Part shown: piece after piece, positions 1,348 to 23,743 of the stretch | Layout of the letters: each line of letters starts with the position of its first letter | Numbering within the stretch: the first letter of the stretch is position 1 | NCBI GenBank assembly: GCA_018822365.1 | Contig: JAHJKL010000029.1 | Location: 1-35,664 of the forward strand | Reading direction: 5' to 3' | DNA: 35,664 nt | Origin: Candidatus Margulisiibacteriota bacterium | GTDB lineage: Bacteria > Margulisbacteria > WOR-1 > O2-12-FULL-45-9 > XYB2-FULL-48-7 | Notes under the pieces: model-generated | What the model was told of the DNA's origin: nothing | Database searches by the model: none | What the model saw: the letters and a program-made list of their open reading frames with translations, nothing else | Translations under genes and position numbers: made by a program

Positions 1348-2415
1348 ATGAATTATCAAGAAAGGATTACCGCGTGCCTGCTCTTGTTCGCCCTGGTCTT
1401 TTTCTCTCGGCCGGCGCTGGCGGAAGAGTCTTTTTCGTACAATGTCCTCCCTTACGCTTTTTACGACTCCTCGATCGGCACGATGTTTGGTTTATTTGGC
1501 GCCAGCTCCAATCTTTTCCAGCGGGGCGAATTGGTCAACGCCTACTTTAATTTCGTCGACAGCGGCGCCCGGGAGATCAACCTGGCCGGAGCTTTTCCCA
1601 GCAAGGAGCGGCGCTATGATCCGATCAAAGTCCCTCTGGCAATCGATGCCGAGCTATCAGTCGGGACAGCGGTTGATGACCGGTTTTACGGTTTGGGGAT
1701 GGGGACCCCTGACAAGAATTATTCGAGCTATAACAATGACTATGCCAATCTCCGCCTTTATTTGACCAAACCGGTCACCAAAGAGCTCCGGTTGGGGGTC
1801 AAACTCCACGCCTCAAATAACTCCCTCTTCAAGATCAACAACCAGCTCAATCCGATCACCGCCGACCTAGAAAATACTTTGCGGCAGTATTATGTCGCCA
1901 GCTTTTTTTTAAAGGGCGAATCGTTTAACAACCTGCTTAACCCGACAGAGAGCTGGTCGCTCTCTTGCTCCCTCGATCTTGGAAGCAGCTCGGCTGATTT
2001 TGTCCGCTGGAAAGGAGAAGCAGCCCGAACTCTCCCCCTCCCCTACCCCGGACAAGCAATTGCCGGGCGACTCTCCTTATCGCAATTAAGCGGGAAAGCC
2101 ATCCCCCTCTATGAATACGCGACTCTCGGCGGTCGGGATAACCTGCGGGGCTATCCCTGGTATCGCTTCCGGGGGTTGGGATCAAGCATGGTCAACCTGG
2201 AATATCGTTTCCCGATCTTCTGGGCGATTGGCGGGGTGCTCCTGTTTGACAGCGGACGGGTCTACGACCGGGCGGGAATGTTTGCCCTGAATTCCTGGGC
2301 GACCGATTATGGCTTTGGCGTCAGGCTCTATCTGCCGACCATGACCCTCCGGGCCGATTACAGCATCGGCAACGAAGGGGGTTTTGTCACTTTCTACTAC
2401 AACCACGCGTTTTAG
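1348..2415 (+). CDS. Omp85-type outer-membrane beta-barrel protein (BamA/TamA C-terminal domain only)
   Basis: 355 residues with a signal peptide (residues 1-25, ending PALA). The rest is a barrel of alternating polar/aromatic strands and no POTRA repeats. The Omp85 signature is visible near residues 262-275 as GGRDNLRGYPWYRFRG, followed by NLEYRFPIF, and the protein ends in Phe, as outer-membrane barrels usually do. This is the 'surface antigen' (Bac_surface_Ag) architecture, seen alone in small Omp85 relatives. Its exact role (protein or lipid translocation) cannot be told. It lies between bioH and bioB and shares a very short divergent promoter with bioH; a functional link to biotin synthesis is unproven. 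The presence of this gene shows the host has an outer membrane. Confidence 0.8.
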   Translation: MNYQERITACLLLFALVFFSRPALAEESFSYNVLPYAFYDSSIGTMFGLFGASSNLFQRGELVNAYFNFVDSGAREINLAGAFPSKERRYDPIKVPLAIDAELSVGTAVDDRFYGLGMGTPDKNYSSYNNDYANLRLYLTKPVTKELRLGVKLHASNNSLFKINNQLNPITADLENTLRQYYVASFFLKGESFNNLLNPTESWSLSCSLDLGSSSADFVRWKGEAARTLPLPYPGQAIAGRLSLSQLSGKAIPLYEYATLGGRDNLRGYPWYRFRGLGSSMVNLEYRFPIFWAIGGVLLFDSGRVYDRAGMFALNSWATDYGFGVRLYLPTMTLRADYSIGNEGGFVTFYYNHAF

Positions 2416-7470: not shown

Positions 7471-7896
7471 TCACAGCTTCTCCCAGCTTTCAACCTTTCC
7501 GGTTATAACTTTAAATATCGGATTTGGGACTAATCTCATTGTTCGTTTATTATACCCTGTTCCCAGGCGCCGCTTCAACTTTCGCCGCAAATGACGGCGC
7601 TCATATTCAAGCTGCCCTTTGTTTACGGTAATGACCCGGCGGATCAGTCCCGGCTCAACGATCTTTGTCCGGTCAAAAACAAAACCCCGCCCATCCGCTT
7701 CCCGCCGAATAAAAGATAAGTATGCGCCAATTGTTTTAAGGGGATCCTTCGCCGCCCGAAACCTCGTTAGCTGGGGATGGCGCTTATAGCCGGTGGTTTT
7801 TCCTTGCAAAACCTTCTGCGCCAAAAGCCCCTCCCGCCAGAGAGCGACCAGCCCTTTACCGTCGAGATATTTTGGATGGAGGCTCCACAATCGCAT
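7471..7896 (-). CDS. Pyrimidine dimer DNA glycosylase family protein (T4 endonuclease V-like)
   Basis: Predicted base-excision repair enzyme of the Pyr_excise family (PF03013). 141 residues. The N-terminus MRLWSLHPKYLDGKGLVALW, followed by REGLLAQKVL and GYKRHPQLTRF, is the family's signature block. The downstream part is rich in basic residues (about 98-118), in keeping with DNA binding. Bacterial members are often annotated only as hypothetical; activity on UV dimers is known for the phage enzyme and inferred here. The promoter is an extended -10 (TG-A-TATCAT) ending 6 bases before the start, within a perfect inverted repeat. A YjbQ remnant follows in frame. Confidence 0.82.
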   Translation of the reverse strand: MRLWSLHPKYLDGKGLVALWREGLLAQKVLQGKTTGYKRHPQLTRFRAAKDPLKTIGAYLSFIRREADGRGFVFDRTKIVEPGLIRRVITVNKGQLEYERRHLRRKLKRRLGTGYNKRTMRLVPNPIFKVITGKVESWEKL

Positions 7897-7900
7897 AGGA

Positions 7901-7923
7901 AAATGATATCACAGTTATCATTT
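7901..7923. promoter_or_regulatory. Inverted repeat overlapping the glycosylase promoter
   Basis: AAATGATA (7901-7908), seven bases, TATCATTT (7916-7923): perfect 8-base arms. The left arm read on the minus strand supplies the glycosylase -10 (TATCAT, preceded by TGA). The right arm supplies the mirror-image TATCAT on the plus strand. It may be an operator for a dimeric repressor or a symmetric divergent promoter. Confidence 0.5.
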
Positions 7924-7934
7924 AAAGAAGAAGT

Positions 7935-7961
7935 GAAATTTTGCCAAAAACCTGCCGATAT
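7935..7961 (+). promoter_or_regulatory. Sigma-28 (FliA)-type promoter candidate
   Basis: GAAATTTT, 11 bases, GCCGATAT. This compares with the flagellar sigma-28 consensus TAAAGTTT-N11-GCCGATAA: 6 of 8 and 7 of 8 matches with exact spacing. It is intergenic and is followed about 100 bases later by an intrinsic terminator. No flagellar gene is in the window, so the match is from sequence only. Confidence 0.5.
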
Positions 7962-7988
7962 ATAGGTAGAAGCGTAAGACATACCTTT

Positions 7989-8018
7989 TCCGCCATAGGC
8001 GGACCCGCCCTGGGCGGG
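7989..8018. repeat. Tandem short palindromes
   Basis: TCCGCC-ATA-GGCGGA (7989-8003) is immediately followed by CCCGCC-CTG-GGCGGG (8004-8018). Paired GC-rich palindromes of this kind are common dispersed elements in uncultivated-lineage genomes. Here they would form two hairpins inside the putative small RNA. No second copy is seen in this window. Confidence 0.5.
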
Positions 8019-8038
8019 CACTTCTGTCGAGACAAATT

Positions 8039-8069
8039 AACCGGGAACGCCTGTTTTCCCGGTTTTTTT
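8039..8069 (+). terminator. Intrinsic terminator before the 8087 gene
   Basis: Stem AACCGGGAA (8039-8047) and TTCCCGGTT (8056-8064), 8-base loop, T-run 8063-8069. It is a strong rightward terminator with no rightward coding gene upstream of it, which is the main reason to suspect a non-coding transcript. Confidence 0.85.
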
Positions 8070-8086
8070 GTATCTTTAGGGCAGAT

Positions 8087-8515
8087 ATGAAAATAAAGTT
8101 TAATAATCCGATCGATCCTAGAGGCCGCTGTTTTGTTTTTAAGCCGGCCGCCGCGCTGCAATTCAAAGGCTCATTTGTCCTGACCAACCGCAACCTTCAC
8201 GATTTTCTCGCGTTAAACCCCGATTTTTCCGGGAAATTTGTTTTTGACCTGCGGACGAAAATACTGGCCCTTGCCGCTGGAGAAGATACTCCGCACCGCA
8301 GCATCGCCCGCTCCCTAACTGAAGACATTTCCAGGAACGAAATGGTCGGAGCTTTTCTTGATCTAAACAGGTCAGCCGATGGGTTCAAAATTGAGCTTTA
8401 TGGCGATTCCGGTTATTTCGGACGACCGTCAGGCAAGGAGTTAAAACTTGTGGCCGATCATCTGGCGGAATTGTTCGGATCGGCAGGAGTAGCCGGCTTA
8501 TCGATTGCTCATTAG
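8087..8515 (+). CDS. Hypothetical protein (142 aa)
   Basis: I do not recognise this protein. It is 142 residues, with no signal peptide and no membrane span. It is a mix of short beta strands (FVFDLRTKILALAAG, FKIELYGDSGYFG) and a C-terminal amphipathic helix (GKELKLVADHLAELFG), so it is probably a small globular cytoplasmic protein. AGGG at about 8077-8080 lies 6 bases before ATG 8087. It follows the putative small RNA and terminator by 17 bases and could be controlled by read-through. Its stop codon overlaps the stop of the leftward gene by 3 bases. Codon use resembles the neighbours, supporting a real gene. Confidence 0.7.
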   Translation: MKIKFNNPIDPRGRCFVFKPAAALQFKGSFVLTNRNLHDFLALNPDFSGKFVFDLRTKILALAAGEDTPHRSIARSLTEDISRNEMVGAFLDLNRSADGFKIELYGDSGYFGRPSGKELKLVADHLAELFGSAGVAGLSIAH

Positions 8516-8982
8516 TCGGTCAACCAGGCGGGCGGGACATTGTCAGAATTATCCCCTGTTTCGCCGGGTATCACCGTTTTGATCTGTCTGGGCTGATAAT
8601 ATACCGTCCTTTTCACTCTTTTCGGTTTTTCCGCCAAACTGATCTTCGCCTTAAGGTCAGCGATCTCTTTTTCATGCCTCGCTTTGATGAACTTGATCTC
8701 TTCCGCTTGTTTCAGATTTAAAGCAATGACCTCTTCCTCATGCTTCGCCATGATCACTGAAATATCGGGTTTCCCGGTCGCCTCTTCTTCGATCCTGGGG
8801 ATCGGCTCCCACATCCGGCCGTTGTATCGCCAGCTCTGGCCGGTCTCGGTATCGACCATCATGAAAGAACTCCCGCCCCAAAAGCCTGCCTTTTCCATAA
8901 AGATCCGGTATCGGTCCGGATTGGCGTGGGTTGCGGCAGCGGATATTAACAGCAGTAATAAGATCAGAAATACTTTTTTCAT
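8512..8982 (-). CDS. Hypothetical secreted/periplasmic protein with a coiled-coil segment
   Basis: 156 residues with a signal peptide (1-20, ending THA). The N-terminal domain (RYRIFMEKAGFWGG, then MMVDTETGQSWRYNGRMWEP, about 23-62) resembles the short tryptophan-rich repeats that describe a value held in a 'DTETG' strand. Next comes a charged helix (about 75-118: HEEEVIALNLKQAEEIKF, KARHEKEIADLKAKISLAEK), probably a coiled coil, and a basic/polar tail. There is no lipobox cysteine. Start support is a GGGGGG-AAGC run just before ATG. No function can be assigned. Confidence 0.75.
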   Translation of the reverse strand: MKKVFLILLLLLISAAATHANPDRYRIFMEKAGFWGGSSFMMVDTETGQSWRYNGRMWEPIPRIEEEATGKPDISVIMAKHEEEVIALNLKQAEEIKFIKARHEKEIADLKAKISLAEKPKRVKRTVYYQPRQIKTVIPGETGDNSDNVPPAWLTD

Positions 8983-9024
8983 GAGCTTCCCCCCTAATAA
9001 ACCTTCAGCCTGACGCTTTCTAGT

Positions 9025-10395
9025 TTACTTGCCTTCTTTTTTCATCGCCGCGAGAATGTCGTCGATCCCAAACCCGTATTTCTGGGGCCTGGTCGCTGCT
9101 GGCGGCGATTCCTTTCTTTCGGCAAGCGGGGCTCTGGGCCGCTCAGGTTGATTTTGTGGTCTCCTGAAGCCGGACTGTCTGGCAGGACGTTGAGGCCGAT
9201 GGGACGGACTATTCCCTCTGCGAGGCTGAAAATGCCGCGAAGGAGGAGACGAGCTCCCCCGGTCAAAACCTTCGGTCATGATCTCGGGATGACGGCCAAC
9301 TGGAATGCTTAGCTTCATCATCCGTTCAATACTGCGGAATTCCTTCTCCTGGTCCGGGGTCGCCAGCGAGATCGCTTTACCTTCGCTGCCGGCGCGGGCG
9401 GTCCGCCCGATCCGGTGAACATAGTTCTCGCTGTCATCTGGCAGGTCAAAATTAACCACCAGCTCGATCCCTTTTACATCAATGCCACGGGCGGCAATGT
9501 CGGTCGCGACTAAAACCCGGTACTTTCCTCTCTTGAACCCTTCCAGCGCCTCCCGGCGCTGGGCCAGAGAGCGGTCGGAATGAATATCAGCCGCGTTAAT
9601 ACGCCGGGACTGCAGGTCGCGGGCAACCCGGAAAGCCCCTCTTTTGGTCCGGCAAAAAACCAGGACCGTCCCCCGGTACTGTTCCAGAAGCTTGCAAAGC
9701 ATCGGCAGTTTTGCTTCTTTCCTGACAATAAATACTTCCTGGGAAACTTTTTCAGCCGCTGTTCCCGGAGGAGCAACCTCGATCCGAATTGGGAGCTTCA
9801 TATATTTTGACGCGACCCGGACGATCTCAACCGGCATGGTCGCGGAAAAAAGCATTGTTTGTTTCTCGCGCGGAACTGTCTTCAAAACCTGTTCGATCTG
9901 GGGGGCAAAACCCATGTCGAGCATCCGGTCAGCTTCGTCCAGGACCACGATCCTGGCGTCACCCAGGTAAACGTTCCCCTGGCTAAGATGATCGATCAAA
10001 CGGCCCGGTGTCGCAATGATAATGCGCGCCTGGCGGCGAAGGGCCTGGATCTGTCTTTCCATAGAAGCGCCACCGATCAGGACCGCCGGCCTGACATTGT
10101 AAGCCTGGCAAAATAAGCGGAGACTCTCTTCAACCTGCAGAGCTAATTCACGGGTTGGGACCAGGATCAACCCTTTCCCCTGTTCTGTCGCTAGCCGTTG
10201 GATCATTGGAATACCGAATGCGAGTGTTTTACCGGTACCGGTCTGGGCGATCCCGACCAGGTCTTTTCCCTCGACCGCGACCGGAATAGCTTTGTGCTGG
10301 ATCGGGGTTGGGGTAGTAAATTTAAGTTTTTCCAGAACTCCCAATGTCTTGGGAGCCAGGCCAAGCCCGTAAAACGTCAGATTTTCGTTGTTCAT
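9025..10395 (-). CDS. DEAD-box RNA helicase (RhlE-like)
   Basis: ATP-dependent RNA helicase, probably acting in ribosome assembly or RNA decay. 456 residues. The Q motif has Q33 (TPIQ), motif I is AQTGTGKT (50-57), Ia PTRELALQ (80-87), II DEAD (153-156), III SAT (184-186) and VI HRIGRTAR (about 328-335). From about residue 365 the tail is rich in Arg, Pro, Gln and Ser (RRGNSPSHRPQRPARQSGF), an unstructured RNA-binding extension as in RhlE/CsdA-type enzymes. Its promoter has TATAAT ending 6 bases before ATG and lies just past the P-type ATPase stop. RhlE is the best subgroup guess but is not certain. Confidence 0.95.
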   Translation of the reverse strand: MNNENLTFYGLGLAPKTLGVLEKLKFTTPTPIQHKAIPVAVEGKDLVGIAQTGTGKTLAFGIPMIQRLATEQGKGLILVPTRELALQVEESLRLFCQAYNVRPAVLIGGASMERQIQALRRQARIIIATPGRLIDHLSQGNVYLGDARIVVLDEADRMLDMGFAPQIEQVLKTVPREKQTMLFSATMPVEIVRVASKYMKLPIRIEVAPPGTAAEKVSQEVFIVRKEAKLPMLCKLLEQYRGTVLVFCRTKRGAFRVARDLQSRRINAADIHSDRSLAQRREALEGFKRGKYRVLVATDIAARGIDVKGIELVVNFDLPDDSENYVHRIGRTARAGSEGKAISLATPDQEKEFRSIERMMKLSIPVGRHPEIMTEGFDRGSSSPPSRHFQPRRGNSPSHRPQRPARQSGFRRPQNQPERPRAPLAERKESPPAATRPQKYGFGIDDILAAMKKEGK

Positions 10396-10401
10396 ACGAC
10401 T

Positions 10402-10430
10402 ATTATAGCTCTTTTATCAATGATAATCAA
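10402..10430 (-). promoter_or_regulatory. Promoter of the DEAD-box helicase gene (probably leaderless)
   Basis: -35 TTGATT (10430-10425), 17-base spacer, -10 TATAAT (10407-10402), then 6 bases to ATG at 10395. No ribosome-binding site can fit after the expected start of transcription. Confidence 0.6.
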
Positions 10431-12976
10431 ACTGAACACCTTGGTGATTTTCGATTCAACAGTTTCAAACCCTCAAACCAGGTCAAACTGGCTACTCCAC
10501 CCAAAAAAGCAATTATCAGGTCGTTCACAGATAATATCTCAAAATGGAACAGATCTCTAAAGAAAGGAAAATAAATAGCCGAAAAAAGAGCAAGCAGTGT
10601 TCCAAAAACCACCAGCCAAAGAGCGAGATTCTTCTTCCTGACGATATAAGTAATGTTCTGTGTCCAGGAAAGATTGGTCAGGATCAACATTAAATTGGCA
10701 AAAACCATGGTCGCAAAGGTCAGCGTCCGGGCTTCAGCCGCGCTTTTTCCCAGGAGAAGAGCCAGCAGAAAAATGATCATAACAACGGCTAATACGCTTA
10801 ACCCCTGAAGAAGACTAATGGCTAAAGCATTCCGGTCAAAAAGCCGGTCTGATAATGAGCGAGGGGGACGCGTCATGAGCCCCTCTTCTTCAGGTTCCGC
10901 TTCAAAAACAGTCGAACAGGCGGGATCGATGATCAATTCTAAGAAAGCAATGTGAGCTGGCAAAAGAACGATCGGCAGCTGGAAAAGGACCGGCAGGAGC
11001 GACATTCCCGCGATGGGAACATGGACGGCAAAAATATAGGCGATCGCTTTTTTCAGGTTCTCATAGATCCGCCTCCCCAGCCTGACCGCTGTCACGATCG
11101 AAGAAAAATCATCGTTAAGCAGGACCAGGTCGGCCGATTCGCGGGCGACATCGGTCCCCCGCTCCCCCATCGCCACTCCAATATGTGCCGATTTCAAAGC
11201 AGGGGCATCGTTAACCCCGTCGCCGGTCATCGCGACCACTTCATTATTCGCTTTGAGAGCGCTGACAATGTTATATTTCTGTTCAGGGACTACCCTGGCA
11301 AAAATATTAATTTCGCGGATCCTTTCCTGCAGTTCAAGCTGCGCCATTTTCTGAAGTTCCAATCCTGTAATCGCCTGGCCGGGATTCTTCAGGCCGATCT
11401 GTCTGGCAATAAATTTTGCGGTCCCAGGATAATCGCCGGTGATCATGATAACCCGCATCCCGGCCGCGTAACATTCTTTAATCGCCGCCGGTACTGTTTC
11501 CCTTATTGGATCGGCAAAACCGATCAACCCGATAAATTGGAAGGCAAAGTCATGCTGCCCTTCGGGAAGGGCGGTTTTCTGGAACGATGCTTTTGCCACG
11601 CCCAACAAGCGCAGCCCTTTCTCGGCCAAAGCCGCGACATCTCCGGCCAGGGTTTCTTTCTGGTCGGCCGAAAAGTGACAAAGATCAGCGATCGCTTCCG
11701 GCGCCCCTTTGGCGGCGATCACAAAACTTTGCTGATCGGGAGACTCCCAAACGTGCGATAAAGCCATCAGCTCTTTGGAAAGAGGATATTCCCTGATCAG
11801 TTTCCAGCGATGATGAATATGCTCGGTATTGGTCAGCCAGAGTTCGCCTCGCGCTTTGATCTCTTTTTCGATCGGATCAAAAGGGTCAGCTTGGCTCGCC
11901 AACAAAGAAAACTCCATTAAGTCGTGAAATCTTTCATCCAGCTGTTTAAGCCCCTTGGTTTCACGGTGCTCCCCGTTGCAATAAAGTGAGCTCAAGGTCA
12001 TTTTGTTATCGGTCAGCGTACCGGTCTTGTCGACGCAAAGAACGGTAGCCGCACCCAGGGTCTCAATAGCCGGCATCTGGCGGGTTAGGATCTGCCTTTT
12101 GGAAAGCCGCCAGGCCCCAAGGGTTAAAAAGATCACCAGGACAACCGAAAACTCTTCGGGGAGCATCGCCATGCTCAAAGTAAGCCCGGCTAAAAATCCG
12201 TTGATCCAGTTCCCCCGGGTCAAGCCATAGACGACAACAACGACCGCGCACAGAAAAAGTCCTACCAGAGCAAACATTCTAATGATCCTTGATGTCTCGT
12301 TCTGCAGAAGGGTAGATTCTTCTTTGATCGACTCTAAGGTTTTTCCTATTTTGCCGATCTCCGTTTTTACTCCGGTCGCAAACACCTCCCCCAACCCATG
12401 ACCCTGAACGATCATTGTGCCTGAATAAACAAAGGGGAGCCCCTCTCCACCGGCTTGTTTCGGCCCGCTTTTCCCGTCCCACTCGCTTTTACCAACCGAA
12501 AGCGACTCCCCGGTCAGCAGGGACTCGTCAAGCATTAAATTACTATTGAAAATGACATTTGCATCGGCCGGTACCCGGTCTCCCTCGTGCAAGACAATGA
12601 TATCTCCCCTAACCACTTCCCGACCATGGATCCTTTTTCGAACTCCGCCGCGAATGACCAGCGCTCTCGGAGAAGATAAATTTCGGAGCGCTTCTAAGGC
12701 ATGTTCGGTCTTTCGCTCCTGATACAAAGTAATGCCGATAACAACCAGCACAAAGGTCATCAGCATCAGGGCATCCTTAAATTCGCCAAGAAGAAAATAG
12801 ATGGCACCGGCGGCCAGAAGGAGCGTCAGCATCGGTTCGCGAATGACGTTCCAGAGGGATTGCAAAAATCTGCGCTGTTTTTGGGAGGGGAGTTCGTTAT
12901 AACCTTCGATCTTCAGCTTTTTTGCTGCTTCTTTTTCTGAAAGGCCTTTAATATTCTGCAGCAGTGCTTCTTTCAT
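10427..12976 (-). CDS. P-type cation-transporting ATPase
   Basis: 849-residue ion pump. The N-terminal cation-ATPase domain (GLSEKEAAKKL, 11-21) is followed by the actuator motif TGES (155-158), the phosphorylated Asp316 in DKTGT, the MITGD and TGDGVNDAP motifs of the P domain (about 510-620), and paired C-terminal membrane spans. Membrane helix 4 carries MLPEEFSV (271-278) where SERCA has PEGL. Helix 6 carries ELIIDPACSTVFEAEP, the block typical of a bacterial P2-like group. The heavy-metal CPx motif is absent, so a heavy-metal pump is unlikely. Ca2+ is possible but the ion is not determined. There are no metal-binding N-terminal domains. It is a single-gene unit upstream of the helicase. 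Confidence 0.92.
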   Translation of the reverse strand: MKEALLQNIKGLSEKEAAKKLKIEGYNELPSQKQRRFLQSLWNVIREPMLTLLLAAGAIYFLLGEFKDALMLMTFVLVVIGITLYQERKTEHALEALRNLSSPRALVIRGGVRKRIHGREVVRGDIIVLHEGDRVPADANVIFNSNLMLDESLLTGESLSVGKSEWDGKSGPKQAGGEGLPFVYSGTMIVQGHGLGEVFATGVKTEIGKIGKTLESIKEESTLLQNETSRIIRMFALVGLFLCAVVVVVYGLTRGNWINGFLAGLTLSMAMLPEEFSVVLVIFLTLGAWRLSKRQILTRQMPAIETLGAATVLCVDKTGTLTDNKMTLSSLYCNGEHRETKGLKQLDERFHDLMEFSLLASQADPFDPIEKEIKARGELWLTNTEHIHHRWKLIREYPLSKELMALSHVWESPDQQSFVIAAKGAPEAIADLCHFSADQKETLAGDVAALAEKGLRLLGVAKASFQKTALPEGQHDFAFQFIGLIGFADPIRETVPAAIKECYAAGMRVIMITGDYPGTAKFIARQIGLKNPGQAITGLELQKMAQLELQERIREINIFARVVPEQKYNIVSALKANNEVVAMTGDGVNDAPALKSAHIGVAMGERGTDVARESADLVLLNDDFSSIVTAVRLGRRIYENLKKAIAYIFAVHVPIAGMSLLPVLFQLPIVLLPAHIAFLELIIDPACSTVFEAEPEEEGLMTRPPRSLSDRLFDRNALAISLLQGLSVLAVVMIIFLLALLLGKSAAEARTLTFATMVFANLMLILTNLSWTQNITYIVRKKNLALWLVVFGTLLALFSAIYFPFFRDLFHFEILSVNDLIIAFLGGVASLTWFEGLKLLNRKSPRCSV

Positions 12977-12983
12977 TCAGGTA

Positions 12984-13012
12984 ATGATATCAAATTAACC
13001 GCTCCCGCTCAA
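12984..13012 (-). promoter_or_regulatory. Promoter of the P-type ATPase gene (probably leaderless)
   Basis: -35 TTGAGC (13012-13007), 17-base spacer, extended -10 TG-A-TATCAT (box 12989-12984), then 7 bases to ATG at 12976. The same TGATATCAT sequence drives the pyrimidine-dimer glycosylase gene. Confidence 0.55.
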
Positions 13013-13016
13013 ACAA

Positions 13017-13047
13017 GAAGGGTCCCAACTTAACGTCGGGACCCTTC
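13017..13047 (-). terminator. Intrinsic terminator after the glutamate-synthase-like gene
   Basis: Ten-base perfect stem GAAGGGTCCC (13017-13026) and GGGACCCTTC (13038-13047), 11-base loop. On the minus strand it is followed by TTGTTTG, a weak T-tract. It lies 21 bases after the stop of the 13069 gene and just before the ATPase promoter. Confidence 0.7.
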
Positions 13048-13068
13048 TCCTGCAATTAAAACAATTAT

Positions 13069-14649
13069 TTAGGCTAAAATCCGATCACAGATCTCTTTAT
13101 CAAGGTCCATGACGTAAGGAATGCCGGTCACCTGTGTACATTCTTGGGTCAAGGAAACAAGATCATCGCGGGTCAGGTAAGAGAGAGCAAATTTCCTCTC
13201 CCCAGCCATGAACTGGCGGAGCCCGGTTGCTAAACGATCAACGTAAGAGTACATCGCAACCGCTCCCAACGGAATCTTCTTAAAGTCCTTGCCATAGATC
13301 CCCTTAAGCTCTTCATATTTCACAAAGATCTCTTCGGCACTCTTCCCGTACTTGGAAACAGTATTGGGAAGTTTCCCTTCTTTAATCCACTGTTCAATGT
13401 TTTTACCAACCATCCCCGGGATCATTGTCGCCCGGCCCATGCAGACCGCTTTAACATATGGCGCTCCCATGGCTATTGCTTTGAAAATATGATCCTCCAG
13501 CGAAAAGCCACCCGCGATCGCCAGGTCAGGGACAAACTTCCCCTTGGCCCGAAGCTTCTCACACATGTCATAAGCCATCGATTGGAGATAGATCGTCGGG
13601 ATCCCCCATTCGCACATCATCCGCCAAGGGCTCATCCCGGTTCCTCCGCTAGCTCCGTCAATGGTGAGCAGGTCGATCTGATGATCGGAAGAGAACTTGA
13701 TCGCCCGGGCCAGATCAGCCGGCCGATAAGCGCCTGTCTTCAGGGTGACATATTTCGCCCCCGCCTTCCGCAAGCGGGAAACTTCGCCGGCAAAACCTTC
13801 TTCCGACACCATCCCGAGGCGGGAATGGCGCTCGAACTCTTTGATCGCCCCTTCTTCGTAGGCTTCTTCGATCGCCTTATTCTCTGGATCAGGGGCAACA
13901 ATATAGCCGCGGGATTTGAGCTGAAGAGCTCTCTCTATCGTTGGCAATTTGACCTCACCGCCAATGTCCTTGGCCCCTTGCCCCCATTTCATTTCGATAA
14001 CTTCCGCGCCGAGCTTTTCGATGGCATACTCCGGCACGCCCAGCCGACCGTCTTCAACGTTGTACTGGACCAGGATATTGCCGTAATCGCCTTTCCATTC
14101 TTGATAAAGCTTGACCCGTCGCTCCAGCTCCGGTGAATTGATGATCCGGCCATTCTTGATCTCAGCTTTCGGGTCCATACCACAGACGTTCTCGCCAACC
14201 ACGATCATGATCCCGGAGATCGCCGCGCCAATGGCAAAGCCTTCCCAGTTAACCCGGGCGATATCGGTCGAACCAAGCGCGCCGGTAAAGACCGGAACTT
14301 TCATTTTGATCTTTGGTTTGCCCGGGGCGCCAACTTCCGACTCAACATTCACGTTGGGGAATTTAGCGACATCAGGGTCCGGCGCTACGCCAACCGCCCC
14401 AACTGCCGTGCCCATAATGTTTAAATGAGAATAGTCAACCGGATAGTCTTTGGTCGATCCGGAAGTGGTCTTGCCATACGGTTGGGGATAGATCACTTCG
14501 CGGCCGCGCATGGAAGAGCGAAATACTTCGCAGTTGCCGGCACATCCGTCGAGACAAACTGAACAAAGGCCTGAACATGGAGCGACTTCCTGGATCCGGT
14601 TCTTGGAGTCGGTCGCGGTTGAACCATTGGGACGCATTAAATTACCCAT
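13069..14649 (-). CDS. FMN-binding glutamate synthase-like protein with N-terminal cysteine cluster
   Basis: 526 residues containing the FMN/glutamate-synthase catalytic domain (GltB domain 2) but no glutaminase domain. The N-terminus has C25, C29, C32, C36 and C40 (CSGLCSVCLDGCAGNC), a likely Fe-S site. The glutamate-synthase barrel is visible in KWGQGAKDIGGEVKLP (about 221-236), LTIDGASGGTGMSP (about 327-340) and IAGGFS plus KAVCMGRATMIPG near 379-410. Related proteins in clostridia and methanogens are annotated as archaeal-type or stand-alone glutamate synthase. Here it is downstream of glnA and a GAF-ANTAR regulator, which supports a role in glutamate formation. The amide or ammonia donor partner is not visible. 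Start support is AAAGGAGAG before ATG 14649. Confidence 0.85.
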   Translation of the reverse strand: MGNLMRPNGSTATDSKNRIQEVAPCSGLCSVCLDGCAGNCEVFRSSMRGREVIYPQPYGKTTSGSTKDYPVDYSHLNIMGTAVGAVGVAPDPDVAKFPNVNVESEVGAPGKPKIKMKVPVFTGALGSTDIARVNWEGFAIGAAISGIMIVVGENVCGMDPKAEIKNGRIINSPELERRVKLYQEWKGDYGNILVQYNVEDGRLGVPEYAIEKLGAEVIEMKWGQGAKDIGGEVKLPTIERALQLKSRGYIVAPDPENKAIEEAYEEGAIKEFERHSRLGMVSEEGFAGEVSRLRKAGAKYVTLKTGAYRPADLARAIKFSSDHQIDLLTIDGASGGTGMSPWRMMCEWGIPTIYLQSMAYDMCEKLRAKGKFVPDLAIAGGFSLEDHIFKAIAMGAPYVKAVCMGRATMIPGMVGKNIEQWIKEGKLPNTVSKYGKSAEEIFVKYEELKGIYGKDFKKIPLGAVAMYSYVDRLATGLRQFMAGERKFALSYLTRDDLVSLTQECTQVTGIPYVMDLDKEICDRILA

Positions 14650-16937: not shown

Positions 16938-18050
16938 TTACTTTTTAAGCGGTAAAACAGGTTTTTTCTTGATTATGACAGGTGCTTTAATTGGTTTTTT
17001 AACGTTCTGTTTAATGACCGGCTTCGGGACAACCGGCGGCTGGGGAAGAGGTGTTTTCACCACTGGCTTTGGCTTTACCACATTAACCGGTGGATCTTCG
17101 CCAATATAACCGATTGAGAAATAATGGGTAGACATCTCGCTTAGGCCGGCAAAGGTCCGGTAAGCATAATCAAAAGTAAACCCTTTGACCTTTGTACCTA
17201 CCCCTAACGAATAATCAATGTTCTCCGGCTTTTGGTCAAAACCGCCGCGTAAAAATATCTGCTTATAAGGATTCCATTCTGCCCCTAAATGCAACAAAAA
17301 GCCCCGGGTTGTGTAAGACAGGTCAGCAATAGTCAACAATTTTCTGTCCGGCAGTTTGAAGGCAACTCCGCCTGTAATCGTCATGGGGAGTTCATCCGCG
17401 CGAATGTTATTCCCCGGAATAATATTTTTAATAGCAATAGAACCGGTCAAACGCTCATTGATCGGAATAATTGTTCCCAGATCCAGGTCAAACCCGCCTC
17501 CACCCGCTCCTTCAAAACTGGCCGCGCCACTAAAACCCTGGTTAACAAACTTCAGGCTGGCGCCAACTTTGGCGTTTCGATCGGTCAAAAATTTGATATT
17601 GTTAATAAACCTGACCTCTTTTGCTTCATTGGCATAACCGATCAAAAGTGAGCCGCTGCCATAATTCGCTTCGTTGCCGGTGATCTCCGGAACCCCATTG
17701 ACCAGGGTCGCTTCTCTGATCCCGCTGACCGAGGCGTTAATATAACCGATACCAAACACCCCATATTGTGTCCGGTAAGCGCCGCCAAGCATCAGGTATG
17801 GGACCTCACCCATAACGTTGCCGCTCATACTGGTCAAGCTGTATTTTTTTACATTGGAAATTCCGGCGGGATTTTGAAAAAGCGAGCCGCTTTCATCCGA
17901 CGGATTAAAGGTATTACCTGTTCCAAGCGGCTTGGACCCGGCACCGATCTCAGTCAGGTCAACAATCTGGGAAGCAAAAGCAGGGGAAAACATCTGTAAA
18001 CAATAAACTGCAAGCATTAAACAAGAAATAACAAACAATCTTTTTGTCAT
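16938..18050 (-). CDS. PorV/PorQ-like outer-membrane protein (UPF0164) with Pro/Lys-rich tail
   Basis: 370 residues with a signal peptide (1-26). The mature N-terminus (EIGAGSKPLGTGNTFNPSDE, then LFQNPAGIS, about 34-65) is the hallmark of the PorV/UPF0164 branch of FadL-like barrels. A 14-strand-type barrel follows to about residue 318. In Bacteroidetes PorV carries sorting-domain cargo during type IX secretion. Here its ATG overlaps the stop of a beta-helix protein with a sorting-like C-terminus by 4 bases (ATGA), suggesting co-translation and a shared pathway. The last 50 residues are almost only Pro, Lys and Val (for example KPKPVVKTPLPQPP), unusual after a barrel. Transport function is inferred only. 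Confidence 0.75.
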   Translation of the reverse strand: MTKRLFVISCLMLAVYCLQMFSPAFASQIVDLTEIGAGSKPLGTGNTFNPSDESGSLFQNPAGISNVKKYSLTSMSGNVMGEVPYLMLGGAYRTQYGVFGIGYINASVSGIREATLVNGVPEITGNEANYGSGSLLIGYANEAKEVRFINNIKFLTDRNAKVGASLKFVNQGFSGAASFEGAGGGGFDLDLGTIIPINERLTGSIAIKNIIPGNNIRADELPMTITGGVAFKLPDRKLLTIADLSYTTRGFLLHLGAEWNPYKQIFLRGGFDQKPENIDYSLGVGTKVKGFTFDYAYRTFAGLSEMSTHYFSIGYIGEDPPVNVVKPKPVVKTPLPQPPVVPKPVIKQNVKKPIKAPVIIKKKPVLPLKK

Positions 18051-20677
18051 TTGACGATCCCCATCTTCCCGCCGCCGATCACTTTACCGGACTGGACGAT
18101 TTTATATAAATAAACGCCATCTCCTAAAATTTGTCCCCATTTGTTTTTTCCATCGAAATCAATATTGTTTTCCCCGGTACTCCCGCCAATCGCTCCGGCC
18201 GCGTAACTGTTCTGCCAAACGACCGTCCCGGCTAAATCAACAATATAAATACTGGTCGCTGCGGCAGAATCAAGCCAGTACCAGATCTTAGCGGCTGTTC
18301 CGCTATTCGGATTATATGGATTTGGTCCAAAGCGGACCACGTTGCTTGAGAGCGCTCCAATTGGCGCAAAGATAGTGAAATGAGTCGTGGTAAAGGTAAT
18401 TGATGTGTCTGTGTAAGAAACAACCGTTATCCCGTCCCGGCTCCAGCCGCTGCCGTTCCAATAGTAGACCCGCGGATCGGCCAGCGGCCCGTCGATCGGC
18501 ATGGTCACTGTCACCGGCAGGGTAAAACTGGTGATCGATGAAACAATGTCATACACTTTGCCGCCAATCATATACCCGACCGGCGGGTTCCCCGGACTGG
18601 CGACTTCAGTCACCGTGATCGTCGGATCGGTCGTAGCCGCCCCGGCTGGAATAGTAATTGTCATCCCGGGAATGCCGAGGTCGGAGCTGGAGTATTCTTT
18701 GGTTGAAGTCTTGACCAGCACTTCCATGGACGCGCTAAATTGGGAAGTGTCCCCCAATTGTCCGGTCTGGGTCGCCGTCAAATAGTCCCCGGAAAGCAAA
18801 CCGCTGTAGGTTATCGTACCGTTAAACGCGCCGGAAGAGTCGGCCGATAAAGCGCCAAGATAGGTTATACCTTCGTCGCCATAGGCCTTAAATAATTCGA
18901 CCGTCGCGTTCGGCGAAGCGGACCCGGTCACCTTTAGGGCGCCGGTAGTCTGATTATATTCATTTGTTAAAACTTCCGGCGATGGGATACCAAGATTTGA
19001 GTCAAGATATAATTTTATCCCCTCTCCATAATTTTCAAAAATTGAATTTTGGGAGATGGTTTCATGGGTCGTGTTTGAATCTTTTATCTGGATGCCATTC
19101 GGATAGGCGCTATTACCATTATAAGCGATACTATTTTTATAATAGTAATTGTCATGACTGCCGGTCAGACTATAAACACCAAAATGCTCGTTTTTTACGT
19201 TGGTTTGCCCATCGCTCCCAAGCCCGATGTAGTTCGACATAATATAATTATGGTCCGACGAGACCACCGCTATCCCCGACATCTGGTTGCCGGAGATAAC
19301 GTTCCTGCTGCCGGCTGTCCCATCGCCTATATAATTATGGTGAGTGCCGTTATATAGCCCTACTCCATGAACGGAATTGCCGATTGAACTTAGCCCATCC
19401 GGGCTTAGGCCGATATAATTTCCTAAAACTTCGTTGCTTGACGATCCATACAGGTAAACACCGTGATTACTATTACCGGAAATCACGTTGCGGCCGCTAA
19501 CCGTTCCATTGCCGATTTTATTTCTAACGGCAGTCCCGCTGATCTGCACTCCATAATTATTGGCGATTTTCGCCGTCCCGGCGGCGTTCAAGCCGATATA
19601 ATTCCCAAGGACCTCATTACTATTAGAATTTGAAATATAAATCCCTAAATTATTCCCGGAAATAATATTCCTGTCCCCAGAATCAGCACCGCCAATGATA
19701 TTGCCAAAAGCGCCGCTTGAAAGATAGATGCCGTAATACCCGTTACCAAGAAGGCCCGAGCCGGAAGCGTTTACGCCGATATAATTCCCCTTAACTTCAT
19801 TGGTCGAGGCATCGGAATAAATATAAACACCATATCCGTTGCCGGAAATAACATTGCGGCCGCCAACCGTCCCATCCCCCACATAGTTGCCAGAAACGCT
19901 ATAAATGATAACGCCATTTTGAGCGCCGCTAAGATCAATTGCTCCGGTCCGATCTGTCCCAATATAATTTCCTAACACTCTATTGTTCGTGTTCCCAATG
20001 CTGCCATATAAGTAAACACCGCCAAAATAATTCCCAGAGATCACGTTGCGGCCGGCAGAGGTCCCATCGCCAATATAATTATTATTGCTGTTATTGACGA
20101 TATAAACACCATAATTACTCGTCAAGGGCGCGGTCGCGTCCCCACTGGCCGATAAGCCGACATAACATCCCTTAATAACATTTCCATCGGCATCATTAAT
20201 AATAATTAATGACCCACCACGGCCGCCTATGGGACCGCATTTATTGACCGCAAGCCCATGAATAACGTTGTTATCCCCCTTGACATAAAAAACATTAGTA
20301 GAAGCCTCCACGCTCGCTCTGACCTCTACCTGCGGGCCCTGGCTGTTTGAGGCTTCGCGGGTTTGGGTAGATCCATCGATCGTTAAATTATTGACCGTGA
20401 TATCCGGCAAGCCTGACCGGAGAACAATCCTGTACCACCAGTTGCTTCCCGCTTCGGTTGTCACCAGTCCAGGACCGGCTTCACCTGTTGAATATCCGGC
20501 ATTGGCCAGGGTAATATCAAAGGCTATGGTATCGCCGGCTCCCGCTTCGGTGATCGCCTGGCGGAGGGAGCCGACACCGGAATCGGCGCAATTGGTGACA
20601 GTCCGGGTGGCGGCCAATCCCGAAGAAGAGAAAAAAACCATAAATAGCACAGCGTAAAATATATTTCGCCAGTTCAT
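18047..20677 (-). CDS. Secreted parallel beta-helix protein with FlgD-Ig/sorting-like C-terminus (paralog 1)
   Basis: 876 residues. Signal peptide 1-23; then TVTNCADSGVGSLRQAI (about 26-42), the N-cap segment common in right-handed beta-helix surface proteins. About six imperfect turns-pairs of roughly 60 residues follow, each with a GRNVISGN-like and an NYIGL-like element (about 190-520). A ZU5/Ig-like module comes next (about 655-775), ending in FTTTHFTIFAPIG. The last 90 residues start NPYNPNSG, contain NNIDFDGKNKWG and end GVYLYKIVQSGKVIGGGKMG, like the FlgD-Ig/T9SS type A sorting domains. It is predicted to be exported to or beyond the outer membrane. No carbohydrate-active catalytic residues are obvious. 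It is coupled to the PorV-like gene by ATGA. Confidence 0.85.
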   Translation of the reverse strand: MNWRNIFYAVLFMVFFSSSGLAATRTVTNCADSGVGSLRQAITEAGAGDTIAFDITLANAGYSTGEAGPGLVTTEAGSNWWYRIVLRSGLPDITVNNLTIDGSTQTREASNSQGPQVEVRASVEASTNVFYVKGDNNVIHGLAVNKCGPIGGRGGSLIIINDADGNVIKGCYVGLSASGDATAPLTSNYGVYIVNNSNNNYIGDGTSAGRNVISGNYFGGVYLYGSIGNTNNRVLGNYIGTDRTGAIDLSGAQNGVIIYSVSGNYVGDGTVGGRNVISGNGYGVYIYSDASTNEVKGNYIGVNASGSGLLGNGYYGIYLSSGAFGNIIGGADSGDRNIISGNNLGIYISNSNSNEVLGNYIGLNAAGTAKIANNYGVQISGTAVRNKIGNGTVSGRNVISGNSNHGVYLYGSSSNEVLGNYIGLSPDGLSSIGNSVHGVGLYNGTHHNYIGDGTAGSRNVISGNQMSGIAVVSSDHNYIMSNYIGLGSDGQTNVKNEHFGVYSLTGSHDNYYYKNSIAYNGNSAYPNGIQIKDSNTTHETISQNSIFENYGEGIKLYLDSNLGIPSPEVLTNEYNQTTGALKVTGSASPNATVELFKAYGDEGITYLGALSADSSGAFNGTITYSGLLSGDYLTATQTGQLGDTSQFSASMEVLVKTSTKEYSSSDLGIPGMTITIPAGAATTDPTITVTEVASPGNPPVGYMIGGKVYDIVSSITSFTLPVTVTMPIDGPLADPRVYYWNGSGWSRDGITVVSYTDTSITFTTTHFTIFAPIGALSSNVVRFGPNPYNPNSGTAAKIWYWLDSAAATSIYIVDLAGTVVWQNSYAAGAIGGSTGENNIDFDGKNKWGQILGDGVYLYKIVQSGKVIGGGKMGIVK

Positions 20678-20716: not shown

Positions 20717-23700
20717 TTATTTAACAATTCCCATCTTCCCGCCGCCGATGACTTTTCCATCCTGGACGATCTTATATAAGTAAACGCCATCCCCCAGGAC
20801 GCTCCCCCATTTATCTTTGCCGTTAAAATCAATATTGTTCTCGCCGGCGCTCCCGCCCGGGACTCCAGCCGAATAGCTATTCTGCCAAACTATCGTTCCG
20901 GTTAAGTCAATGATATAAATGCTCGTCGCCGCGGCAGAATCAAGCCAGTACCATATTTTGGCGGCCGCGCCGCTGTTTGGATTGTATGGGTTGGGAGCAA
21001 CCCGGACCAGGTTGCTGGCAAGCGCCACCATAGGAGCAAAAGTTGAAAAATGGCTCGTAGTAAACGTAACCGATCGATCATCGTAGGCAACAATCTCGAT
21101 CCCTTCACGGCTCCAGCCTCCTGACCCCCAATAAAACACCCGCGGGGCGGCAAGTGGAACATTGACCGGCATAGTCATGGTTATTGGCTTCGAAAATGCT
21201 TTGATCGAAGAAATAACATTCAAGACTTTTCCCGCAATATGATAGCCGGGAGGCGGAGGGCCGGGACTTACGGTCTCCAAAATCGAGATCACCGGGATAT
21301 TGACCAGCGCGTCGCCAGGGATTGAGATATGGGTTCCAGGCATGCCAAGATCTGATTCGGTATAAACCAAAGCTGCTGGGAGCGGTTCATCAGGAAAAAC
21401 AAAGGTCGCCTTCGCTTTGATTGAAGAGGTTTTGCCAGGATCATAAATTGAAGAAGAGGTTAGTATTACTTCAGCGGTCGTCGTACTGCTTCCAATGGAG
21501 CAGATCTCAATCCTTCCTTCCATTTGTCCTCCAACTGGAAGGGAAGATGGATAACTGCCCGCTTGGACCGCGGCAGTTATATCGTTTCCTCCGCTCTTAG
21601 CGTCAAATATTCTCAAGCTGTGTTCGCTTCCTGGTCCGTTTGCCTCCAGCAGATATTGATCGGCAACATTGCCAAGATTCTTCAATGAAAAATAATACAC
21701 GGCCGTTTCTTTGGATGTGACAGAAAGAATTGCTTCATCATCCATATAAACCGACCCACTTGTCCCAATTTTGAGTTCTGGCTGATAAAGAAAAGGAACG
21801 GCAATGTTGATCTCTTTTACCAGTGAAAACTCAGAGGTATTCTGAAGATTATCCCGTTGCGTAGCGACCAGGGTATCGCCGGCCAATAAGCCCGGACAGG
21901 TGATCGAACTATCAACCTCTCCGCTGGCAGAAGCGGAAAAACTCCACAAGTACTTCTCTCCCTGTCCGCCTCGCGCCTTAAAGATCTCAACCCGCGCGTT
22001 GGGAGAAGCGGAAACAGTCAGCGCCAGCTCGCCGGTCGGCTGGTTATAACTAGTGGCAATAATCACCGGTGACGGGATCATAATATTCGCCCCGTTAAGG
22101 AGCAAGATCCCCCGTCCGTAATTTTCATAAATAGAATTTCTACTGATCAATTCCTGGGTCGACTGAGAACTGTTCAAAAATATTCCGGCCGGATGCATAA
22201 AGTCGCCATTAAAAGCCACAACGTTAGACGGTCCAATTATATTCGCGCCAGCTTTATTGTCGATATAAACCCCAAACCAGCTGTTACCAGCCTCCGCGCT
22301 GGCCGCGTCGATACCGATGAAATTATTCGACAACTCATTGTAGCTTGTGCCGGGATCTACCAGATATACTCCATTATGACCATTATTGGAAATAATATTT
22401 CCGCCCCCGCCGATCCGGTTATATTTTGCTCCCTGCCTGATGTTTACGCCATCGCCCGAGTTACCGATAATCGTATTTCCGCTAACCTCATTACTGTTGA
22501 CCCCCATTCCAACAATTGAAATCCCGGCTTCATTGTTACCGGAAATAACATTGCCGGCATAGAGCAGGTTATTCTTTGCGGCACTATACAATGAAACTCC
22601 CCCCCAATCATTACTAACTGCTGACAAGCCATCGATATCGGTCCCGATATAATTGCCGGCAACCACATTGCTATCGGCCCCAATCACTACCCCATACCGG
22701 TTATTCCCTGAAATAATATTGCGGCCATTGTTCTGGCCATTTCCAATTCGATTAAAATTTGCGCCGCTGTAAATAGAGACCCCCTCCTGATTGTTCCCCA
22801 GATCAAACCGACCGGTCCGGTCAAGCCCAATAATGTTTCCATATACTTCATTACTGTTGCTGCCGGTCCCGCTTACGTAAATCCCAAGATTGTCGTTGCC
22901 GGAAATGACATTTCCTTCATTCGAATCCCGGCCGCCTATAGTATTATTGTTTGCGCCGTCATATAACCAAACACCGTAATAAGTGTTTCCCAGGTCTATT
23001 GTCCCGGTCCGGTCGGTCCCAATAAAGTTAGCGGCAATTTTATTTTCCTGACCAGCGGCAACACAAACCCCATATAGACCATTTGCAGAAATAACATTCC
23101 CTAAGCCAGCTGTTCCAATAATATTATTGGCCCCATTTGCGATATAAACACCGATATCTGAAGCAAGCGGAGCGGCCATGTCGCCGCTCGCGTTTGTCCC
23201 CAGATAACAGCTTCGAACTAGGTTCCCTCGCGCTCCATTAATATTTATCAAACTCCCCAATTTACCGTTGCCAGAGCCATATTTATTGATAGCCAAACCT
23301 TCGATCGTGTTATTGTTTCCGCTAATGGTAAAAACATCAGTAAAAGAGGTGGCATTGGCCCGGACTTCCACTTCCGGACCGGAACTATTATCCGCCTCTC
23401 CAGTTTGAGTCGAACCATTTATTGAGACCCCGCTAGCGGTTAAAACAGGCAGTCCGGAATTCAAAACTATCCGAAACCATTTCTTGCCTGGAACTTCACT
23501 AACTACCAACCCTGGAAAGCCGGGGCCAGCAGAATATCCTCCCTCTTGGGTCGTTATGGCAAAAACTATCTGATCGCTATCCTGGGTGTCGGTCATTACC
23601 TGGCGAAGAGAGCCAGGACCAGAATCGGCACAGTTAGTGACAGTCCGGGAAAGAGCGGCACTGGCCGATTGGGAAGCAGCAATGTAGGAAAGCACAAGGA

Positions 23701-23743
23701 CCACGCTGGTATAGACCTTAAGCTTGTCAATGTTAAAATTCAT
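20717..23743 (-). CDS. Secreted parallel beta-helix protein with FlgD-Ig/sorting-like C-terminus (paralog 2)
   Basis: 1008 residues, a tandem paralog of the 18047 gene. Signal peptide about 1-30, TVTNCADSGPGSLRQVM N-cap, then beta-helix turns with GNVISGN- and NYIGTD-like elements (about 190-560). This copy has an extra immunoglobulin-like domain of about 120 residues (about 655-775, PFLYQPELKIGTSG onward) that the other lacks. Both then share the module ending FTTSHFSTFAPM and a nearly identical last 90 residues (NPYNPNSG to GGGKMGIVK). Start support is AAAGGAG 10 bases before ATG, with an extended -10 further up. It is probably an adhesin or matrix-type surface protein; no enzyme activity is evident. 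Confidence 0.85.
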   Translation of the reverse strand: MNFNIDKLKVYTSVVLVLSYIAASQSASAALSRTVTNCADSGPGSLRQVMTDTQDSDQIVFAITTQEGGYSAGPGFPGLVVSEVPGKKWFRIVLNSGLPVLTASGVSINGSTQTGEADNSSGPEVEVRANATSFTDVFTISGNNNTIEGLAINKYGSGNGKLGSLININGARGNLVRSCYLGTNASGDMAAPLASDIGVYIANGANNIIGTAGLGNVISANGLYGVCVAAGQENKIAANFIGTDRTGTIDLGNTYYGVWLYDGANNNTIGGRDSNEGNVISGNDNLGIYVSGTGSNSNEVYGNIIGLDRTGRFDLGNNQEGVSIYSGANFNRIGNGQNNGRNIISGNNRYGVVIGADSNVVAGNYIGTDIDGLSAVSNDWGGVSLYSAAKNNLLYAGNVISGNNEAGISIVGMGVNSNEVSGNTIIGNSGDGVNIRQGAKYNRIGGGGNIISNNGHNGVYLVDPGTSYNELSNNFIGIDAASAEAGNSWFGVYIDNKAGANIIGPSNVVAFNGDFMHPAGIFLNSSQSTQELISRNSIYENYGRGILLLNGANIMIPSPVIIATSYNQPTGELALTVSASPNARVEIFKARGGQGEKYLWSFSASASGEVDSSITCPGLLAGDTLVATQRDNLQNTSEFSLVKEINIAVPFLYQPELKIGTSGSVYMDDEAILSVTSKETAVYYFSLKNLGNVADQYLLEANGPGSEHSLRIFDAKSGGNDITAAVQAGSYPSSLPVGGQMEGRIEICSIGSSTTTAEVILTSSSIYDPGKTSSIKAKATFVFPDEPLPAALVYTESDLGMPGTHISIPGDALVNIPVISILETVSPGPPPPGYHIAGKVLNVISSIKAFSKPITMTMPVNVPLAAPRVFYWGSGGWSREGIEIVAYDDRSVTFTTSHFSTFAPMVALASNLVRVAPNPYNPNSGAAAKIWYWLDSAAATSIYIIDLTGTIVWQNSYSAGVPGGSAGENNIDFNGKDKWGSVLGDGVYLYKIVQDGKVIGGGKMGIVK

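Follow-up and report, generated by a model that had tools for sequence, protein, structure and literature searches.

The subject of this report is a minus-strand operon in a 35,664-nucleotide stretch of DNA (the window: positions 1 to 35,664 of contig JAHJKL010000029.1, assembly GCA_018822365.1), which encodes two secreted beta-helix proteins, here cargo 1 and cargo 2, followed by an outer-membrane barrel of the PorV family. The source genome (1.68 Mb, 95% complete) is affiliated with Candidatus Saganbacteria, within the Margulisiibacteriota. The operon looks like the cargo/carrier part of the type IX secretion system (T9SS) and fails at least one defining feature of the full system, the protease PorU. 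From gene content, gene order and relatedness, all read from sequence, we infer export, binding and anchoring, and we consider that the operon is probably one unit of a phylum-wide, T9SS-like surface display in which each PorV-like barrel would carry, and then anchor, its own cargo. The elements of the operon are as follows.

20717..23743, minus strand: cargo 2, a paralogous secreted beta-helix protein of 1008 amino acids (Pfam matches, reading of the open reading frame)
18047..20677, minus strand: cargo 1, a secreted right-handed beta-helix protein of 876 amino acids (open reading frame and domain matches)
18047..18050, minus strand: ATGA stop/start overlap between cargo 1 and the barrel (reading of the DNA; the overlap is also present in a complete congeneric genome)
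16938..18050, minus strand: PorV-family outer-membrane barrel of 370 amino acids, the proposed carrier and anchor of both cargos (NCBIfam PorV_fam; profile of paralogs against PDB)

Cargo 2 is separated by 39 bp from cargo 1, which in turn shares four bases with the barrel gene (by direct reading, ATC GTC AAA TGA over ATG ACA AAA). Inspection of the DNA at 18047-18050 confirmed this overlap, and both reading frames lie at the coordinates given in the initial annotation, which had described cargo 1 and the barrel as a coupled pair and missed the second cargo upstream, with its same C-terminus. The whole arrangement of cargo 2, cargo 1 and barrel, overlap included, is conserved in a complete congeneric genome (G064), where it lies between gltD and glnA.

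Evidence for a system rather than an isolated operon comes from the distribution of the two components in 74 Margulisiibacteriota genomes, including Candidatus Saganbacteria/WOR-1, 31 of which belong to the class of the window and 34 of which are of good quality. The C-terminal domain (CTD) on which both cargos end was found in 74/74 genomes, as were PorV-family barrels, with about 19 CTD proteins and about 16 barrels in the source genome; the initial annotation had proposed counting the proteins that share the tail. When the top 150 matches were taken for CTDs and likewise for barrels, 37 of these CTD genes, in 18 genomes, were followed on the same strand, within 400 bp, by a PorV-family barrel; the cargo came first every time, and no pair of opposite orientation occurred among these same matches. 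The complete genome holds five cargo-then-PorV pairs (0.04 would be expected from random placement) and the source genome seven (the window, C64, C71, C83, C27 twice and C74). The arrangement exceeds chance and is not a one-off, and the suggestion that cargo and carrier form dedicated pairs is borne out.

Both window cargos start with a signal-like N-terminus, as judged by eye, and continue through right-handed beta-helix repeats and a domain of ~120 residues to a CTD of ~92 residues at the very end. In cargo 1 the Beta_helix and NosD models of Pfam matched above cut-off (31.6 and 28.1 bits, respectively), in keeping with the large beta-helix cargo first described. The FlgD-Ig or type A-like nature that had been ascribed to its C-terminus is seen at profile level: cargo 1 reaches 18.7 bits with FlgD_ig (cut-off 27) and the CTDs of both cargos fall short of the cut-offs curated for FlgD_ig and for TIGR04183, whereas a profile of 12 CTDs of this genome searched against PDB retrieved the PorU CTD best (E 8e-7), followed by FlgD (7.6e-5) and the PorZ CTD (1.7e-4); gingipain and NucA CTDs ranked next, without significance. 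The two domains map as follows.

18050..18325, minus strand: CTD of cargo 1, a FlgD-Ig/type A-like sorting domain with an I-x4-G-x2-V loop motif and a terminal lysine (alignment, profile against PDB; motifs according to PMC11285876)
20720..20995, minus strand: CTD of cargo 2 (profile match, alignment)

In Porphyromonas gingivalis, the I-x4-G-x2-V loop and a C-terminal motif with a last-strand lysine are reported to be necessary for T9SS export, and the CTDs of PorU and PorZ stay uncleaved (PMC11285876), which by analogy would fit a display in which the CTD is retained. The alignment of the 12 CTDs, inspected by eye, has the C-terminal lysine in 12/12 and the loop glycine in 8/12, with alanine in the other 4/12, and all 12 domains form the extreme C-terminus of their proteins. 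The two window cargos are 84% identical in the CTD and 47% in the passenger; across the paired cargos the passengers vary widely while the CTD is constant, and those elsewhere are not beta-helices. Proteins of ~110 amino acids with little beyond a hydrophobic N-terminus and the CTD also occur, each followed by a PorV-family barrel, in seven genomes (L034:10006-10359, on C83 of G000; L140, L151, L154, L159, L161 and L165); such a cargo-free CTD protein might act as a plug or belong to the core of the system.

The assignment of the barrel to PorV/UPF0164 in the initial annotation stood in its first half. Residues 34-315 match the NCBIfam PorV/PorQ family NF033709 (E 7e-13, 48.8 bits), under its curated cut-off of 90, which three of the barrel paralogs exceed, and a profile of 11 paralogs from the same genome retrieved PorV of Flavobacterium johnsoniae (6h3i_F) as its best PDB match (E 5.9e-8). 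The UPF0164 label is unsupported for the window barrel because this protein has zero Pfam matches at E<=1; weak UPF0164 matches were confined to two paralogs. Models of PorP did not match the window barrel either.

PorV belongs to the FadL fold family, the CTD profile has FlgD in second place among its matches and the operon sits within a nitrogen-assimilation cluster. All of this would suit FadL-like uptake barrels standing beside surface-active secreted proteins; the CTD would then be an Ig fold of a generic kind, and the reason for the pairing would be metabolic. We hold this to be distinctly improbable, given that the CTD is kept constant in front of such different passengers, that even the CTD-only proteins are paired with a barrel, and that PorV outranks the FadL-like structure 3dwo, which the paralog profile matched only at E 0.06. 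The adjacency of a beta-helix protein and a barrel in one operon likewise recalls two-partner secretion (type Vb), in which a beta-helix TpsA protein is exported by its own barrel. This explanation is scarcely credible here: the barrel matches PorV rather than Omp85, no POTRA domain was matched in Pfam, and the other paired cargos have no beta-helix. Two-partner secretion was rejected, the window barrel not being an Omp85 protein.

How the barrels might be fixed in the envelope is suggested by what lies behind them. The window barrel ends in the following segment.

16941..17102, minus strand: Pro/Lys-rich C-terminal tail of 54 residues, expected to be periplasmic (sequence; similar tail in the ortholog of the same genus)

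In the paralogs the barrel is followed by SLH domains on six (C27 twice, C71, C12, C21 and C77), two LysM domains on one and TPR on one. The SLH and LysM domains would be periplasmic, and many PorV-family barrels therefore look tied to peptidoglycan. This resembles the OmpM/SLH tethers of diderm Terrabacteria (PMC10628300) in joining an outer-membrane barrel to an SLH domain and hence to the cell wall, and differs from them in that the barrel is PorV-like, the SLH domain is C-terminal and the partner is a secreted protein. Together with the dedicated pairs and the failure to find a sortase or a motor, these tails and domains could mean that the barrel is only the final anchor, the cargo getting to the surface in some other way and its CTD doing no more than dock on a barrel tethered to peptidoglycan. 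That explanation seems unlikely to us, though the least so of the alternatives to export on the barrel, since a candidate pore is at hand, in a giant barrel that has a CTD protein as its neighbour at every Saganbacteria locus of sufficient length, and no other outer-membrane route was identified.

This giant barrel emerged from searches with the SprA model, which gave weak matches in 59/74 genomes, confined to a short hairpin region and falling in two families, one of ~1000 amino acids (C15) and one of 1330-1860 (C38). The latter is the giant barrel family, present in 71/74 genomes and in 34/34 of those of good quality. At 23 of the 26 Saganbacteria loci it adjoins a convergent subtilase gene whose product bears the CTD; at the other three the contig stops within ~520 bp. 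An AlphaFold model of residues 160-1357 of an ortholog (34-sequence alignment) has a predicted local distance difference test (pLDDT) score of 82 and 39 strands of at least 9 residues, and the barrel of SprA has 36 strands (PMC10994853). Foldseek placed SprA entries at ranks 1-3 for this model (E 1e-11 to 4.5e-10) with the Deinococcus SlpA behind (6e-8), a lead to which the length of SprA may contribute. We regard the giant barrel beside the CTD-subtilase as a candidate SprA-type translocon, linked to SprA by the short hairpin motifs and the fold search, its identity with SprA being possible. At one locus a C15-type gene, recognised by its C-terminus, accompanies a cargo/PorV pair related to that of the window (L177:4038-6698 and 7891-13310), and the same hairpin motif occurs in Candidatus Wallbacteria proteins of 2052-3324 amino acids (L132, L133, L134). 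A profile of the C15 family returned nothing from PDB.

Several observations weigh against the proposed T9SS-like display and have to be set beside it. The giant barrel fits the SprA model only at the hairpin motif, about positions 590-717 and below cut-off, and no match of that model in any genome goes beyond 51.3 bits, where 200 would be required; the motif is common to phage tail proteins; the AlphaFold model has a predicted template-modelling score (pTM) of only 0.47; and the template-modelling scores (TM-scores) from Foldseek are low and equal for SprA (0.26) and the Deinococcus SlpA barrel (0.25). The full-length giant-barrel profile had zero matches in PDB, single sequences had no relevant one, and the profile of the hairpin motif found SprA at E 0.44, behind a tailspike, so that an identification as SprA by sequence was rejected. 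The PorU protease family (peptidase C25, PF01364) was found in 0/31 genomes of the class. The same model retrieved C25 proteins in 2/74 genomes, more distant members of the phylum (L180/L181, in G035 as an open frame of 3856 amino acids and in G031 as one of 782), which indicates that the search works. In searches run without a positive control, GldL was found in 0/74 genomes and GldM in 3/74 at a sub-threshold 18-20 bits, leaving no known motor. An adjacent PorV gene is wanting for about 12 of the 19 CTDs in the source genome. The distances among the CTDs of the 37 pairs correlate with those among their partner barrels (r 0.85, a value reached by 0/5000 within-genome shuffles), which speaks in favour of the display, but linked inheritance in an operon could give the same on its own, and the correlation is not proof of contact. 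Finally, FlgD also has FlgD-Ig folds.

The further T9SS components that the initial annotation had named as worth seeking turned out unevenly: the PorU family was not found in the class, PorL/GldL and PorM/GldM gave no match and sub-threshold matches, respectively, in the searches without a positive control, and SprA/Sov has a candidate in a barrel of its size with a short motif in common. The grounds on which the initial annotation would have given up its idea do not apply: there is at least one candidate for a further component, and the CTD is neither internal nor followed by other sequence in the aligned family. A standard T9SS was rejected, C25 proteases not having been found in the class. 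It could still be argued that a true and complete T9SS exists, too diverged for its PorU, motor and ring to be recognised by the models; relatives of the CTD and PorV and a SprA-sized barrel are present, the GldL and GldM searches had no positive control, and the models used for sortase, motor and translocon were those of C25, GldL, GldM and SprA. We find this unlikely, as the C25 search demonstrably works and yet finds nothing in the class, and the SprA model stays so far under its cut-off. Downstream of the giant barrel in one UBP8 Margulisiibacteriota genome (L126:14539-18099), an amidase_3/AMIN protein gene precedes ExbB-, ExbD- and TonB-family genes, and a neighbouring genome (L124) has an amidase-like and a TonB-like gene; the ExbB/ExbD/TonB genes of that one locus, L126, are a possible energy source.

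Under the T9SS-like display that we favour, a cargo would reach the periplasm via Sec and dock through its CTD on its own PorV-like barrel. The pair would then leave by way of a large translocon in the outer membrane, the best candidate being the giant barrel (C38) beside the CTD-subtilase, and the cargo would remain surface-bound on the barrel, itself tethered to the cell wall. A PorU-type sortase would be unneeded. In the two window cargos, self-cleavage before the CTD is conceivable, owing to the domain that directly precedes it.

18350..18703, minus strand: GAIN/ZU5-like domain of cargo 1, directly before the CTD (AlphaFold and Foldseek)
18374-18382, minus strand: HFT of cargo 1, near the end of the GAIN/ZU5-like domain (sequence)
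21044..21052, minus strand: HFS of cargo 2, where its GAIN/ZU5-like domain ends (sequence)

An AlphaFold model of this domain of cargo 1, from a two-sequence alignment, has pLDDT values mostly of 80-90, and its best 15 Foldseek matches are all extracellular (GAIN) entries of adhesion G-protein-coupled receptors (GPCRs) or ankyrin ZU5 entries, the best at E 1.1e-3. HFT and HFS are motifs of the type at which GAIN and ZU5 proteins cleave themselves. The Pfam GPS model matched the window cargos at E 0.02-0.08, under its cut-off, and a sequence search of the domain against PDB yielded nothing useful. Judging from the predicted fold and the motif, both window cargos could self-cleave just before the CTD. 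They share with adhesion GPCRs and with ankyrin and UNC5 the predicted fold and an HF(T/S) motif, here placed before the CTD, and differ from them in being bacterial and secreted, in their weak Foldseek values (1e-3 at best) and in a cleavage that is only putative.

Among known systems, the closest in layout are the type B cargo/PorP-SprF pairs of Bacteroidota, whose cargos require a carrier encoded directly downstream, are thought to be held at the surface by these FadL-fold, PorP-like barrels, and depend on PorE for the link to peptidoglycan (PMC12618676, PMC9143113). The cargo gene is likewise directly 5' of a dedicated FadL-fold carrier in the window, but the carrier matches PorV instead of PorP, the CTD is nearer to type A/FlgD-Ig and peptidoglycan binding is often fused to the carrier. 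One cargo (L039) also exceeds the CHU_C cut-off. With type A secretion through PorV, SprA and PorU the Margulisiibacteriota share the CTD and PorV families and the presence of an outer-membrane barrel of very large size; they differ in having several PorV paralogs instead of one, in that the PorU family was not found in the class nor GldL in a search without positive control, and in a giant barrel of about 1330-1860 residues that is not SprA by full-length sequence. T9SS has been reported as restricted to Bacteroidetes (PMC4793230), or as possibly present in other phyla of the Fibrobacteres-Chlorobi-Bacteroidetes (FCB) group and absent beyond (PMC11285876), and we found no literature linking it to Margulisbacteria or Saganbacteria in a search that lay outside preprints and most subscription papers. 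The idea of a type IX-like pair outside Bacteroidetes, from which the present analysis started, is supported as regards the relatives of CTD and PorV, their common operon and the lineage, and unsupported as regards a standard T9SS.

The cargo/PorV operon is enclosed in a nitrogen-assimilation cluster (window 13069-35511) that is conserved in the same genus and comprises two ammonium transporters, a type III glutamine synthetase, gltB, gltD, glnA, a GAF-ANTAR regulator and a glutamate-synthase-like protein. Elsewhere in the window (1348-2415) a 355-amino-acid protein carries an Omp85 superfamily domain and is short for a BamA relative.

It is tempting to speculate, and for now tentatively, that a minimal relative of T9SS exists throughout the Margulisiibacteriota, beyond the FCB group, with a SprA-like translocon, many dedicated wall-tethered PorV-like carriers and perhaps self-cleaving cargo domains, and without a C25 sortase; we regard this as possible, somewhat on the doubtful side. 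If true, T9SS could have arisen from a wider display module to which sortase and motor were added later. In a phylum near Cyanobacteria, a core made up of CTD cargo, PorV carrier and perhaps a pore resembling SprA would be a simple system for asking what is the minimum for such export, and would also let one ask whether a carrier can be the final anchor. In these uncultured bacteria, surface proteins can be sought by a simple rule, the CTD together with an adjoining barrel.

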